From: Bremerella volcania
GTDB taxonomy: Bacteria > Planctomycetota > Planctomycetia > Pirellulales > Pirellulaceae
NCBI RefSeq assembly: GCF_007748115.1
Contig: NZ_CP036289.1
Location: 6,262,001-6,326,000, forward strand
Direction: 5' to 3'
Length of the DNA: 64,000 bases
The notes under the pieces were generated by a model. That model searched no databases and was not told the DNA's origin. It saw nothing but the letters and a program-made list of their open reading frames with translations. A program made the translations under genes and the position numbers. Of the stretch, positions 4,077 to 55,394 are shown in pieces. The stretch's first letter is position 1. Each line of letters begins with the position of its first letter.

Positions 4077-5345
4077 TTAGGCGATCAATTCCTTAATCAC
4101 CTTACCGCCATTGGCGATCTTCATCGGACGACCGCTCTTGCTGGTGAACGTGGTATCAAGCGAGATACCCATCGCACGGCAAACGGTGGCCATCAGGTCT
4201 TCCGAGCTGTATGGTTCGGTTTCCACGCGAGTACCATCCGAGCTGGTTTCACCAACCGCGATACCGCCGTTGATGCCACCACCACCGACCACGGTGCTCC
4301 AGCTGCGAGCCCAGTGATCGCGACCGGTGTTGCCGTTGATGCGTGGCGTACGGCTGAACTCACCCATCCACACGATCGTGGTGCTTTCCAGCAGACCGCG
4401 TTGCTTCAGGTCGGTTACCAACGCACTCATCGCACGGTCGAGGACCGGCAGCTTGTTGTCGGACAACGTGTTGAAGATGTTCTGGTGGTTGTCCCAACCG
4501 CCCAGATCGACTTCGATGAATGGAACGCCAGCTTCCACCAGACGGCGAGCCAGCAAGCAACCACGGCCGAAGCCATCGTTACCGTACAGTTCCTTCATTT
4601 CTTCTGGTTCTTCCATAACCTTGAAGGCCTTCATCTGATCGCTGGTCATCAGCTTGACCGTCTTGTCCAGAATCTTGGCGTGATCCAGGGCAGCCGGACC
4701 GCGGTTCTGGTTGACGAAGCCACCTTCGATCAAACGCAGCATTTCCAGGCGGCTTTGCAGGGTTTCATCTCCCCAGCCCTTCATGCCCAGGTTACGAACC
4801 TGGCCATTGCTGCTGACGGTGAACGGTGCCCACGACATCCCCAAGAAGCCTGGGCCGACGCTACCACCACCAACCGAAACGAACGGTGGGATTTCCAATT
4901 CATTGTGGTCGCTGGCCAGTTCGTGAGCGATCACCGAACCGTAGCTGGGGTGTTCGATGTTCGGATTGGGCACGTAACCGGTGTGCATGTAGTAACGGCC
5001 GCGACCGTGATCCGCTTCGCGGGTGCTCATCGAGCGAACGACCGAGAGGTTGTCCATCACCTTGGCAGTCAGCGGCATGTGCTCGCTGATTTGCAGGTCA
5101 CCCTTGGTGCTGATCGGACGGAAAGGACCACCGGTGTTGGTACCTGGCTTAAGATCCCAGATGTCCATCGTGCTAGGACCGCCGCCCATCCAAAGCATGA
5201 TGCAGCTCTTGCCACGCTTCTTCAGGTCTTGAGCATTGGCCTGGATAGCGCTTCCCATCATCAACGAGGGAGCGATCATGGCCGATGCGCCAGCCATGTG
5301 CGACATGAAGTGACGTCGGGTCATCCCCTGTGGAGCAAAACTCAT
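4077..5345 (-). CDS. DUF1501 domain-containing exported protein
   Basis: The 422-residue product starts with a twin-arginine signal ([14 protein letters not shown]). The body has the DUF1501 signatures [21 protein letters not shown] near residue 50, [13 protein letters not shown], and a C-terminal [20 protein letters not shown] block. DUF1501 proteins belong to the alkaline phosphatase/sulfatase-like superfamily and are extremely common in planctomycetes, usually beside a DUF1549/1553 protein, as here (75 bp downstream of it on the same strand). The pair is inferred to act in the periplasm, possibly on polysaccharides, but no substrate is established. A Shine-Dalgarno-like AAGGAA precedes the ATG. 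Confidence 0.92.
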
Positions 5346-5420: not shown

Positions 5421-7091
5421 TTAGTGATTCAAAATAAACTCGTTGCTGTTCAAGAGAGCCCAGAAGACGTCTTGCATGGCCTTGGCCATGTCTCCCTTGT
5501 GAACACCAATGAGGTAGTTAGCGGCCTGCAGCTCGTTTCGCGTTGGGCGGCGAGCCACCGTTGCCATGTACAAGTGATTGATTGCTTCCTTACCATCGCG
5601 ACCTTCCGCGGCCATGCGGTGGATGAAGCTGCCTTGCTTCGTGCTGACGGCGTCCATGACCAGGTCGCCATTGAACATCATCAGGGCCTGAGGAATAGTG
5701 CCGTTGAACGTCGTCGCTTCGTCCCCTTCATCGGTTCCGAAGGCGGTGACAAACTGCTGCATCCATTCGCTCTTCTTCTTTTCCTGAGCTTCGTAATTGC
5801 CGCGAGTCTTGTGAGCCTCGGTGGCGACCAGCAGCGATTCGTACAGCTGTTCGGCCTGCATCTGACGCAGGTAGAAGTGGCTGAACTTCGGCGGTTCGCC
5901 GACGGTCGGATCGTCCAGGGCATTCCCCTTGGTGATCTTGCTGGAAAGACCATACGCTTCGCTCAGGGTGATCCAGCGGATCAAGTCCTTCAGGTTGAAA
6001 CTGTTACCACGAACTTGCTCACCCAGGTAGGTGACCAGTTCCGGATGGGTGGGGCGATTGTGGGGGCCCATGTCGTCGACAGGCTTCGTGAAGCCGTAAC
6101 CGAGGAAGTGACCCCAGTAACGGTTGGCGATCGCTTCGGGCAGGTTCTCGGAGTCGATGATGAACTTCGCCAGTTCATCGCGACGGTTGACTTCCGAAAC
6201 ACGACCACTGGTGGGGATCTTCTGACCATCCAGAAATTCTGGATAAGCGACCTTCAGCAGGCCGTTACGCAGTTCGTAGTAAATTTCGGCATTGTTGATG
6301 TTGCGGCCTTCTCCCATGAAGTCGACGTTGTTGAGCGTCATCGCTCGCATGTTATCGTCGCCACCAGCAGGCATCTGACCACGTTGAGCACGCGTTTGAC
6401 GGAAGAACGCGTTCATGTTCCAGAACTTTTCCTGCTTCCATTCGTTGAATGGATGGTTGTGGCACTGGGTACACTGAACCTGCATACCGAGGAAAATCTG
6501 GGCCGTCTTGGCGGTCGCCTGAACGCCATCTTCTTCCAACTTGTCCATGTAGAAGTTGACGGCACCGTTGAAGTTGGGCATGCCAGGCGTGTTGGCACCG
6601 GTAGCGGTCACCAGTTCTTTGACTATTTGGTCGTATGGCTTGTTTCGAGCGAAGCTATCCCGTAGGTACTTTTGCATCCCAGGGCGGCTGATCTGCGAGT
6701 TGTTGTCAGTACCGCCGTTACGACCAATCAGGATGTTGGTCCAAATGGTGGTCCAGTTGCGGGCATATTCTTCGGTGTATTGCTCGTCGTAGAGGAGCTT
6801 GTCGACCAGATTCTTCTTCTTGTCCTTGCCGCGATCACGCTGAAACTCATTCAATTCGTCGACCGAAGGAACGCGTCCCAGGACATCAAGGAACAGGCGA
6901 CGTGCCCAAACAGTGTCGATCTCTTCGGGAGATGGCGAGATTCCATAGTCTTCCCAACCGAGACGAATCTTCTCGTTGATCGTGGCAACCTGTGGGATGC
7001 CGTAATCTTCAGCTTTATCAGCGGCACTCAAGCCCGCGGCCATTGCGAGCACGACGCCGAACGTAACGGGAAGAAATTGCCAGCGCGACAT
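5421..7091 (-). CDS. DUF1549 and DUF1553 domain-containing exported protein
   Basis: The 556-residue protein has a Sec signal peptide (residues 1-24, ending SAA). DUF1549 occupies roughly residues 35-240 and includes RRLFLDVLGRVPS and a single CTQCHNHPF motif, which could bind heme (CxxCH). DUF1553 follows, with SGRVSEVNRRDELAKFI, NRYWGHFLGYG and a C-terminal LNSNEFILNH ending typical of the family. Partner of the downstream DUF1501 gene and surely co-transcribed with it. It is shorter than many relatives because it lacks the extra N-terminal cytochrome domain. Function in the family is unproven; a periplasmic redox or sugar-degrading role is only inferred. Confidence 0.92.
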   Translation of the reverse strand: MSRWQFLPVTFGVVLAMAAGLSAADKAEDYGIPQVATINEKIRLGWEDYGISPSPEEIDTVWARRLFLDVLGRVPSVDELNEFQRDRGKDKKKNLVDKLLYDEQYTEEYARNWTTIWTNILIGRNGGTDNNSQISRPGMQKYLRDSFARNKPYDQIVKELVTATGANTPGMPNFNGAVNFYMDKLEEDGVQATAKTAQIFLGMQVQCTQCHNHPFNEWKQEKFWNMNAFFRQTRAQRGQMPAGGDDNMRAMTLNNVDFMGEGRNINNAEIYYELRNGLLKVAYPEFLDGQKIPTSGRVSEVNRRDELAKFIIDSENLPEAIANRYWGHFLGYGFTKPVDDMGPHNRPTHPELVTYLGEQVRGNSFNLKDLIRWITLSEAYGLSSKITKGNALDDPTVGEPPKFSHFYLRQMQAEQLYESLLVATEAHKTRGNYEAQEKKKSEWMQQFVTAFGTDEGDEATTFNGTIPQALMMFNGDLVMDAVSTKQGSFIHRMAAEGRDGKEAINHLYMATVARRPTRNELQAANYLIGVHKGDMAKAMQDVFWALLNSNEFILNH

Positions 7092-7469
7092 GGGGATACC
7101 TCTCTGCGACTAAAAATGGACGGCGAAAAGCCCTCGTGCGTAACGAGTTAGGTCTGTCCATTGTGAGCTACTATCCTGACTAGACATTGCAAGAATGCCG
7201 TAACTCAACCTGGATAAACGTGCGTGTACTATGAATGTACTCGTTGAATTTCCGGAATCGGAGGGTTTTCTGGGAGTTTTTCCCCGCCAGCGGACAAGAT
7301 GCGGGATCACTCTTATATTCTGCGGAATTCGAGTAGATTATTCCGGCCTATCAAAAGTGGTGTTTTTTATCGTAAATTTTGTTTTTTCGATTTGATATCG
7401 CATTTCGCGGCACCTATACCCCCACGCGGGGCGTATCATAATTGCACACTGCTCAATTTTGCAACGCGC
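7092..7469. other. Leader/intergenic region before the DUF1549 gene
   Basis: This AT-richer stretch lies between the minus-strand terminator at 7478-7513 and the DUF1549 start. It should hold the promoter of that operon on the minus strand, but I could not find a convincing -35/-10 pair. No coding sequence is supported. Confidence 0.4.
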
Positions 7470-7698
7470 AAAATAAAACAGGCGAGTCGTCTCTGTTAAA
7501 CGAACTCGCCTGTTCTATTACGGATGGAAGGGGGAGATCCTTCCAACTCAAGCCTCTTATCATCCTTTCGGAACAACCTTAAACCAATGCCTCTAAAGGA
7601 TTAAGGTCCTAAACCGGTGTGCCTCTTCTTAAAACCGGCCCCTGTTATCAAGGATCCTCTTCTCTGTTCCGACCCTGTCTCAGTTTCCGTTAGGACGC
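7470..7698 (-). ncRNA. Candidate sigma-54-driven structured small RNA (~230 nt)
   Basis: A -24/-12 promoter predicts a start near 7698 on the minus strand, and a strong intrinsic terminator ends the transcript near 7470. Between them no protein of useful length is encoded. The RNA can form a stem CCGGT/ACCGG (7638-7634 with 7618-7614), a perfect 7-bp stem ACCTTAA/TTAAGGT (7607-7601 with 7582-7576), a perfect 7-bp stem TGGAAGG/CCTTCCA (7545-7539 with 7531-7525), and the terminator. Four (A/U)AGAGG motifs recur at 7661-7656, 7627-7622, 7595-7590 and 7558-7553, spaced 32-37 nt; two fall in loops. The RNA is also rich in GGA. Inferred roles: titration of an RNA-binding protein or antisense pairing. 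It could instead be a leader with an attenuator for the DUF1549 operon downstream. Confidence 0.6.
7478..7513 (-). terminator. Intrinsic terminator of the candidate small RNA
   Basis: Perfect 10-bp arms ACAGGCGAGT/ACTCGCCTGT enclose a 16-nt loop. Read on the minus strand, the stem is followed by TTTATTTTG, a good U-run. The plus-strand side has a weaker TTCTATT, so it could also work for plus-strand transcripts. Confidence 0.8.
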
Positions 7699-7707
7699 TA
7701 GACACAT

Positions 7708-7725
7708 ATGCAATAGGCGTGCCAA
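7708..7725 (-). promoter_or_regulatory. Sigma-54 (RpoN) -24/-12 promoter
   Basis: The minus strand reads TTGGCACGCCTATTGCAT. It has the invariant GG and GC spaced by exactly 10 nt and matches the consensus YTGGCACGrNNNTTGCW at all but one position. Predicted start of transcription is about 12 nt beyond the GC, near 7698. Confidence 0.75.
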
Positions 7726-8055: not shown

Positions 8056-8694
8056 TTGTCGATTTCGGAATCGACTGCCCGAAGATACGAACTGCAAGAT
8101 CCGGATGTCCGGCTCATGCTGTTGGTGCGCGATGACGACGCGGCCGCGTTCGAAGAGCTGATGCTCCGATACCAACGCCGGGTCGTCACGGTGTTGGAAC
8201 ACTTGGTGGGGAAGCGAGATCTAGCCGAAGACCTTGCCCAGGACGTCTTTATGCGCGTTTATCGCTCGCGCAAGTCGTACGTGCCGGGCTCGCGGTTCTC
8301 GACATGGCTTTTCACCATCGTGAACAACGTGGCCAGCAACGCCCGCCGCAGCCTGGCCCGTCGCAAGGAAGTTCAAGTCACCAACGCCGCCGAGCAATCA
8401 GGCAGCCAACCGGCTGACCCCATGGAGCGTATCGCCACGGCAGCCAGCGGCATGATGCCTACCCGGCAACTCGATAAATCAGAAATGGGTTCGATCGTCC
8501 GCCAGGCGGTCGAGTCCCTCAACGAACGACAACGGATGGCCGTGTTGCTCTCGAAATTTGAAGAGATGAGCTACGCCGACATCGCCGAAACGATGGGCAT
8601 GTCGGTTCAAGCCATCAAGTCGTTATTGTCCCGAGCCCGGGCCAACCTGAAAGAAGCCCTGCAACCCTACTTACAAGAAGGAACCGTCCCCTAA
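8056..8694 (+). CDS. ECF-type RNA polymerase sigma factor
   Basis: The 212-residue protein has sigma region 2 (AFEELMLRYQRRVVTVLEHL through DLAEDLAQDVFMRVYRSR and FSTWLFTIVNNVASN, residues ~35-95) and sigma region 4 (LNERQRMAVLLSKFEEMSYADIAETMGMS, ~155-185, then SVQAIKSLLSRARANL). The start is TTG 8056, chosen because GGAG at 8044-8047 lies at the right distance. It is followed by an anti-sigma-like gene and an exported protein, the usual layout for a signal-controlled alternative sigma factor. The inducing signal is unknown. Confidence 0.9.
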   Translation: MSISESTARRYELQDPDVRLMLLVRDDDAAAFEELMLRYQRRVVTVLEHLVGKRDLAEDLAQDVFMRVYRSRKSYVPGSRFSTWLFTIVNNVASNARRSLARRKEVQVTNAAEQSGSQPADPMERIATAASGMMPTRQLDKSEMGSIVRQAVESLNERQRMAVLLSKFEEMSYADIAETMGMSVQAIKSLLSRARANLKEALQPYLQEGTVP

Positions 8695-25230: not shown

Positions 25231-25752
25231 ATGACGCATGACGACTCCCCATTTCGATCACCGAGCCTGAATTCGACCCAGTCTGCCACGGATGAGGAGG
25301 CTCGGATTCGTGATAGGCCCAATGCTATTGTGGATTGTGGGAATCTCGCTTCCGACCCGAGTGAAGTGGATCGTTTATTGGTGCTTCGTTTTATCGCGGC
25401 CTTCGTCATCTTTCGTCTGGCGCAGCAGATCTATTCGACACTGGTCGCCATTCTTTGCGGCTCGCTGATTCTACTTCCGTTACCGTGTCTGGTTCCGTTG
25501 CCGTTAATGGGTCTTTTGGTCTTGCTCAACGTCAATCATGAAGCTTTGCGCGAGCTGAACGAGCATGGTCTCCGACCGGGGTTCCTGGGCATGAGCCAAA
25601 GCGCGGCGCTCGCTCAGCTCAACATGCAAAGAGCTGAGCCGGGTGCCATGCCCACGTCCACTTGGGCATGCGTTCCAAGCCCCAACGGGGCGACAGATAA
25701 TAGCCAGGGGCGTCAGCCCCTGGTAGGCGATCAGAAAAAATCCAAGCCCTGA
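25231..25752 (+). CDS. Degraded paralogue of the preceding SPFRSP protein
   Basis: The N-terminus (THDDSPFRSPSLNSTQ) and the later part (FRLAQQIYSTLVAILCG, GLRPGFLGMSQS) match the gene at 24726. Between them, the reading frame differs: the homologous helix is encoded in another frame (PMLLWIVGISLPTRVKWIVYWCFVL), entered after a deletion of some tens of bases and left by a 1-base deletion just before TTTCGTCTGGC. The C-terminal ~40 residues read into a dispersed repeat. This is probably a decaying copy, with the frame restored by chance. Confidence 0.5.
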   Translation: MTHDDSPFRSPSLNSTQSATDEEARIRDRPNAIVDCGNLASDPSEVDRLLVLRFIAAFVIFRLAQQIYSTLVAILCGSLILLPLPCLVPLPLMGLLVLLNVNHEALRELNEHGLRPGFLGMSQSAALAQLNMQRAEPGAMPTSTWACVPSPNGATDNSQGRQPLVGDQKKSKP

Positions 25753-55027: not shown

Positions 55028-55394
55028 GAGGACAACCACGGATGGCACGGATGAACACGGATAAGTTGTAGGATGGCTACGCCTTCCGAGGCGATAGCCA
55101 TCCTACAACAGACAAAACTTAGAACTCAGTTTGTTAATCAGATCAACTCCTAGCCCTGTAAGGGCGACAGATAATAGCCAGGGGCGTAAGCCCCTGGAAA
55201 GCGACCCTCTAAAACGTTGAGCCCCAACGGGGCGACAGAACTTCTCCATGAATGTTTTCTGTCGCCCCTTCAGGGCTCACGACGCTTGGGTCAACGGCAC
55301 CAGGGGCTTGCGCCCCTGGCTATTATCTAGCGCCCCGTTGGGGCTGAAGAGCGTTTCGACCACCAACGACGCGAGTTACGCATAACCGCTTCCC
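55028..55394. repeat. Compound repeat region inside the ExbBD locus
   Basis: No gene. It contains a CACGGATGGCACGGATGAACACGGATAAG copy, a GATGGCTACGCCTTCCGAGGCGATAGCCATC hairpin (TAGCC family, 55073-55103) and an inverted pair of the GGGGCGACAGATAATAGCC family (55160-55335). Three repeat families meet in one gap, which separates the last ExbD gene from the TPR gene. Confidence 0.7.

Follow-up and report, generated by a model that had tools for sequence, protein, structure and literature searches.

Why should a near-perfect sigma-54 promoter stand in front of some 230 nt that carry no conserved protein? An earlier note had read the minus strand at 7470-7725 of the window (the whole stretch of DNA that was analysed, 64 kb long) as a signal-driven regulatory RNA acting by protein titration, for which it pointed to CsrA-type proteins, or by masking ribosome sites, and had placed it alone between a DUF1549 operon and a sigma factor locus. 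Below, coordinates are window positions, the genome of the window is G000, the sigma-54 RNA is called RNA B and its partner RNA A. The parts of B are as follows:

7708..7725, minus strand: sigma-54 -24/-12 promoter of RNA B, TTGGCACGCCTATTGCAT, a sequence match, with TTGGCAC...TGCA in 14/14 homologues
7470..7698, minus strand: predicted RNA B, its start put at ~7698, 12 nt past the -12 C, and its end at the U-run of the terminator
7562..7696, minus strand: predicted multibranched domain; closing stem P1 (7685-7696 with 7562-7573) encloses hairpins H1, H2 and H3
7656..7675, minus strand: putative A-binding site 1, GGGUCGGAACAGAGAAGAGG, in hairpin H1, loop included; complementary to the A seed over 20 contiguous nt
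7621..7642, minus strand: putative A-binding site 2, GGGGCCGG-N6-GAAGAGGC, in hairpin H2; pairs with the two ends of the A seed, an internal loop lying between them, in 14/14
7589..7595, minus strand: third AGAGGC copy, in the loop of H3, found in the window's genus only; 6-7 nt complementary to the A seed
7552..7558, minus strand: fourth copy, AAGAGGC, between P1 and H4, where the fold predicts a single strand; all 14 have AGAGGC
7526..7546, minus strand: variable hairpin H4, predicted from the fold
7470..7513, minus strand: intrinsic terminator, ACAGGCGAGU...ACUCGCCUGUUUUAUUUU, a strong hairpin with a U-run

The promoter is exactly as the earlier note described it: the box reads TTGGCACG-CCTA-TTGCAT with GG-N10-GC spacing, at 7725-7708 of the minus strand. 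Nowhere else in the 6.5 Mb genome is TTGGCACGN4TTGCAT matched exactly; sigma-54-type sites with up to two mismatches number 80, compared with 37 for the reversed pattern. The sigma-54 gene itself is present in eight of the nine genomes of the genus, the ninth being 68% complete; B thus combines the -24/-12 box and the genomic sigma-54 factor that together mark a sigma-54-dependent gene at the level of sequence. By eye, the alignment of the homologues shows no common upstream element beyond ~30 nt. Elsewhere in the family (L100 184-596, G228), a P-II nitrogen regulator gene (PF00543, 101 bits) is preceded at ~40 nt by a B-like sigma-54 box, which hints at nitrogen control through sigma-54 in this family.

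The ~230 nt behind the promoter end in a terminator run, UUUUAUUUU, whose last position is 7470, and the minus strand folds more stably than all 200 of its dinucleotide shuffles (z -3.44), in agreement with the strong stems and intrinsic terminator noted earlier. A conserved small protein was considered and rejected, the longest open reading frames of four type-1 sequences (34, 57, 18 and 28 codons) being unlike one another. When the whole window was searched against Rfam, B stayed below the gathering threshold (best E 1.1, 17.4 bits, cut-off 67).

The same 64 kb hold three Acido-Lenti-1 RNAs (RF01687; 46.9-56 bits, cut-off 37), at 25678-25723 (-), 55152-55197 (-) and 55300-55345 (+), the last two ~100 bp apart and in opposite orientation. 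The table of the paper describing this RNA (PMC2864571) names Acidobacteria and Lentisphaerae in the portion available, which also lists Rhodopirellula-1 without an Rfam number. We found no papers on small RNAs of this group in the open-licence PubMed Central literature. A comparison of sigma-54 regulons that includes Planctomycetia (PMC12316311) does not use the terms 'small RNA' or 'sRNA' in its main text, and a table row in an excerpt of PMC9029176 reads 'PVC group 8', apparently an sRNA count.

The 271-bp region of B is present in all nine genomes of the genus, the other eight at 87-95% identity, and homologues occur in five genomes of two further genera, which makes 14 genomes in three genera (g1, g8 and g20), Blastopirellula marina DSM 3645 (L014) among them. 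The earlier note had tied the candidate to conservation of box and stems in relatives and had proposed a covariance model search across the family. When 241 genomes of the family were searched at the DNA level, 14 sequences came back; a covariance model made from these recovered the identical 14 genomes. All 14 keep TTGGCAC...TGCA, the loop stretch CAGAGAAGAGGA, the GAAGAGGC loop, a later AGAGGC and the terminator; one script had searched for such a box, and the alignment was made without using it. RNAalifold assigned 41 pairs to these sequences; for 14 of the pairs, at least one sequence has changed on both sides. Since these reflect few independent events, and MAFFT shifts the closing stem by one column between genera, we take the covariation as support for a structured RNA rather than as proving each helix. 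In H1 and H2 together, 98.7% of cells are paired and none has a two-sided change, so these two hairpins have one-sided support only.

The four (A/U)AGAGG repeats that had drawn attention to this RNA were all found, at 7661-7656, 7627-7622, 7595-7590 and 7558-7553. Four copies of AGAGG compare with a shuffle mean of 1.06 and are reached in 12 of 1000 shuffles; the B. marina homologue has three (mean 0.70; reached in 27 of 1000). A 15-mer from one of the loops, GGAACAGAGAAGAGG, occurs exactly in 95 of the 241 family genomes and in 48 of 68 genera, compared with a single genome for the reversed pattern. In the open-licence literature of PubMed Central this core 15-mer appears in a single paper, which concerns a human gene. 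At most loci that were read, it lies on the opposite strand of another short gene, which we named RNA A:

G000:C1:5388271-5388400, minus strand, outside the window: RNA A of the window's genome

RNA A is predicted to be ~118-144 nt long and to start at a sigma-70-like promoter, with a CU-rich seed, GGCCUCUUCUCUGUUCCGGCCCC, just 5' of its terminator. Its layout comprises the promoter, a variable part, and GGCCTCTTCTCTGTTCCGGCCCCG leading into the terminator hairpin and T-run. A TGGACA/TATSAT-like promoter pattern was present in 32 of the 37 loci scanned and absent in five, and in three of the 32 it lies too near the seed to be credible. A model of 62 positions was made from 38 A sequences, whose mutual identity is partly a matter of construction because they were chosen by the exact 15-mer. 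This model matches 102 of the 241 family genomes at 46.9 bits or more, the next genome scoring 34 bits; the count is our own, at a best E of 1e-14 or less, and stricter filters apply in searches over 40 genomes. Of these A-positive genomes, 94 contain the exact 15-mer, and in G144, where the 15-mer occurs without an A match, the locus is not sponge-like by eye. Furthermore, strong matches to A (E below 1e-18) were identified in 17 other families among 396 genomes sampled from the order. A is divergent from a suhB-like inositol monophosphatase gene (PF00459 in the window's own genome) in 29 of 34 loci from the model search, nine from the window's genus. Rfam had no match for A in 14 loci (best 16.4 bits, cut-off 49.5). 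The A seed is kept in many genomes without a match to the B model and, since that model finds B in only 14 of the 241 family genomes, A does not need B. The two genes lie 0.88 Mb apart in the window's genome; in L155 (G056:C259) they are ~3.5 kb apart on one contig and flank ECF sigma and anti-sigma genes.

The 23-nt A seed finds 20 contiguous pairs in B, one or two of them G-U, in 11 of the 14 genomes; when each sequence was shuffled 500 times by composition, runs grew no longer than 13-17. One mismatch in site 1 (19 of 20) leaves runs of 6 plus 13 in L004, L005 and L007, where 13 nt does not exceed what shuffles give (maxima 15-16) and site 2 pairs more strongly. Masking site 1 leaves GGGGCCGG-N6-GAAGAGGC as the next site in 14/14. 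An internal loop separates its pairing with one end of the seed from that with the other; G005 has GGGGUCGG at this site and retains the pairing. The energy of site 2 is -33.2 to -37.5 kcal/mol in 14/14; of the 200 dinucleotide shuffles made for each sequence, 0-4 do as well. The other AGAGGC copies of B offer 6-7 nt to the seed. No site in G000 other than A itself and B comes within one mismatch of GAACAGAGAAGAGGC. Compared as whole molecules by RNAduplex, A and B beat all 200 shuffles in eight of the 14 genomes and stay within their range in six; because this comparison permits pairing around large loops and ignores each RNA's own fold, we added the seed-based tests. The gain from co-folding A with B over folding them separately is 14.0-28.0 kcal/mol in 14/14, a figure that stands without a shuffled control. 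B therefore has one of the features that define a sponge, namely extended and evolutionarily kept complementarity to the conserved seed of a separate sRNA. The A-complementary stretches are also among the most invariant parts of B, much else of which varies between genera.

The genes around B are these:

5421..7091, minus strand: DUF1549/DUF1553 (PSCyt2/PSD1) gene, reading in the same direction as B and downstream of it in 14 close relatives and at five diverged loci
4077..5345, minus strand: DUF1501 gene, second in the presumed operon
8056..8694, plus strand: divergent ECF-type sigma factor gene, adjoining B in 14 close relatives

B is flanked by the DUF1549 gene and the ECF sigma gene in every one of the 14 close relatives. 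Diverged B-like RNAs were sought by the complement of A only, with position left unused. Among nine extra 15-mer copies that belong to neither A nor B in multi-copy genomes, three are sponge-like (G069, G148 and G055), three are contig-end copies of one repeat in G009, and three (G029 twice, G066) are something else. Among the matches listed, A-positive genomes gave 13 second, weak matches to the A model, of which one is sponge-like with a sigma-54 box (G227), two are possible (G029 and G058) and ten are unconvincing. The resulting B-like RNAs are:

G069: three sites; sigma-54 box 11/12; terminator by eye
G148: four sites; sigma-54 box 10/12; terminator by eye
G055: three or four sites, depending on threshold; no convincing upstream box; terminator by eye
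G227: one strong and one weak site; box 12/12; no clear terminator by eye
G029, a weaker case: one site; box 8/12; terminator by eye

The number of sites in G069, G148 and G055 is matched by none of 150 shuffles. For G227 and G029, four and five of 150 match the number of sites, and none matches the best site. A box score of 10/12 alone, as in G148, is weak evidence, because a 10/12 match also occurs downstream of the RNA in G055. Each of the five RNAs is followed, in the same orientation, by a DUF1549-DUF1501 operon (the position in G029 was derived by hand), the DUF1549 proteins there being 54-61% identical to that of the window, and no match to the ECF sigma gene was found in these loci. 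Since the position next to the DUF1549 operon is shared by the 14 relatives and the five diverged loci, and the sigma gene is unmatched in the latter, the operon is the anchor. It follows that B does not quite sit alone, as the earlier note had it: the site upstream of the operon is kept even where the sequence of the RNA has turned over. What is kept are the A-complementary sites and, in most cases each, the sigma-54 box and the terminator.

Two further sequences came up in this search. GGAACAGAGAAGAGGRACCCGT is common to L278, L279 and L280, from two genera (G029 twice, G066), and is not sponge-like. In G058, L287 has at 675-699 a hairpin, GGGGCCGGAACAGAGAAGAAGCCCC, followed by a terminator-like hairpin, without a sigma-54 box; this possible short RNA may be a minimal A antagonist, and no DUF1549 match was found in the surrounding 8.5 kb.

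With promoter and terminator sequence, conservation, complementarity and position of B established, what does the RNA do? Because its sequence matches the most conserved stretch of A base for base, B probably soaks up A upon a signal. We thus regard B as a stand-alone non-coding RNA that acts as a signal-induced sponge of A, a reading to which we assign a probability of about 0.6. From the features above we infer transcription of B, its pairing with A in the cell, the direction of the effect, the targets of A and the existence of the signal, as follows. An enhancer-binding protein would activate sigma-54 RNA polymerase, and B would be made. Its predicted fold would present one full-length and one centrally bulged complement of the seed, plus one or two short AGAGGC copies. 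Pairing with the CU-rich seed would then sequester A or mark it for double-strand decay, and targets under the control of A, presumably mRNAs with purine-rich AGAGAAGAGG-like ribosome-binding regions, would be released. Judged by its letters, the A seed looks like the complement of such a purine-rich region. A-complementary 15-mers with up to three mismatches show no excess in the window's genome (162, compared with 170 for the reversed control). We read 28 of the 162 sites, 14 with two mismatches and 14 with three, and none of the two-mismatch sites has a start codon within 24 nt that opens at least 60 codons; the three-mismatch site L220 lies 3 nt before an ATG that opens 141 codons. No Hfq (PF17209) was found in any of the nine genomes of the genus by a search that finds Hfq in five of 14 control genomes, and a long perfect duplex is what one would expect where Hfq is missing.

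The rival that we take most seriously, unlikely as we think it, reverses the roles of the two RNAs: B would be the leader of the DUF1549-DUF1501 operon, transcribed from the sigma-54 start, with its terminator as an attenuator, and binding of A, as the regulator, would set read-through or decay of B, as the target. The constant position speaks for this, B being upstream of the DUF1549 gene and in the same orientation in 14/14 relatives and 5/5 diverged loci despite the altered RNA and sigma neighbour. However, the terminator is complete and is followed by 378, 246 and 326 nt (G000, G035 and G056) before the assumed DUF1549 start codon. This gap contains a TGATAC element in five of nine sequences (window 7434-7439, G006, G055, G069 and G227; TGTATTGTTTTGATACA in G227 and TTTTGATACA in G069), which may belong to a promoter of the operon's own, separate from that of B, or to an operator. 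Nor is an antiterminator fold apparent in the predicted structures as they stand.

Less probable still is that B is an ordinary trans-acting sRNA with mRNA targets of its own, its match to A reflecting shared targets or a secondary interaction. The predicted fold does expose several purine-rich loops that could serve such a function; the invariance of precisely the A-complementary stretches, and the persistence of the A seed where the B model finds nothing, argue against it.

That the loop repeats titrate something is probable, and to this extent the earlier note stands, whereas CsrA as the partner is unsupported and, in our judgement, very improbable. The genus is rich in CsrA-family proteins (PF02599; 5-11 matches per genome in G000-G008, 11 in the window's own), a number of paralogues that seems unusual. 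However, the many GGA triplets to which the note had pointed carry no weight, with seven in the window's B compared with 7.75 on average in shuffles (seven or more in 756 of 1000) and four in the B. marina homologue compared with 6.41. Three of the four repeats read AGAGGC rather than AnGGA, AnGGA loop repeats above chance are absent from B, and binding of CsrA would not require a match of 16-20 nt to A. Finally, a chance meeting of promoter-like and terminator-like sequence without any RNA can be set aside, given that 14 genomes from three genera all retain the promoter, the loops and the terminator as a set.

The two RNAs may be parts of a wider arrangement, on which we would put even odds: a Pirellulales two-RNA switch, in which a sigma-54 sponge at the DUF1549-DUF1501 locus gates an order-wide, Hfq-independent A whose CU-rich 23-nt seed hardly varies. 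The sponge would have been rebuilt in sequence several times, yet would have retained its decoy sites, its position and, for the most part, its promoter type. Bacteria with no detected Hfq (nine genomes of one genus) would then have a conserved regulator that acts by base-pairing, an RNA that antagonizes it and a sigma factor that turns this antagonist on. Such a switch would also amount to a natural experiment on a sponge whose decoy sites outlast the turnover of its remaining sequence.

How does this compare with known systems? Sponges of CsrA of the CsrB/RsmZ type carry repeated AnGGA motifs in loops. B as proposed shares with them a repeated loop motif and the logic of titration; its motif, however, is not AnGGA and is explained by complementarity to an RNA. 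CrcZ of Pseudomonas is a sigma-54 promoted non-coding RNA whose repeated short motif titrates Hfq/Crc. It resembles B in its sigma-54 promoter, in the several copies of a short motif and in the titration of a post-transcriptional regulator that we propose for B, whereas the partner of CrcZ is a protein complex, and that proposed for B is an RNA, in a genus in which Hfq was not detected. SroC and ChiX are sRNA traps, and such sRNA sponges are mostly processed from tRNA or mRNA transcripts and linked to Hfq. Another, 3'ETS-leuZ, is described in the part of PMC10470494 that concerns it as an sRNA sponge for RyhB. Like these three, B as proposed would base-pair with an sRNA and tune or relieve its action; unlike them, it comes with a sigma-54 promoter and a terminator of its own and with two long sites, one of them centrally bulged. 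The nearest described case that we met, likened to B by description and not by sequence, is CjNC140-CjNC110 of Campylobacter jejuni, for which the relevant passage of the same paper (PMC10470494) reports a direct sRNA-sRNA interaction without Hfq or ProQ and suggests that one partner may be under sigma-54. That pair, too, works without Hfq; compared with it, as there described, B is distinguished by its multiple sites, and A by its conservation across an order.
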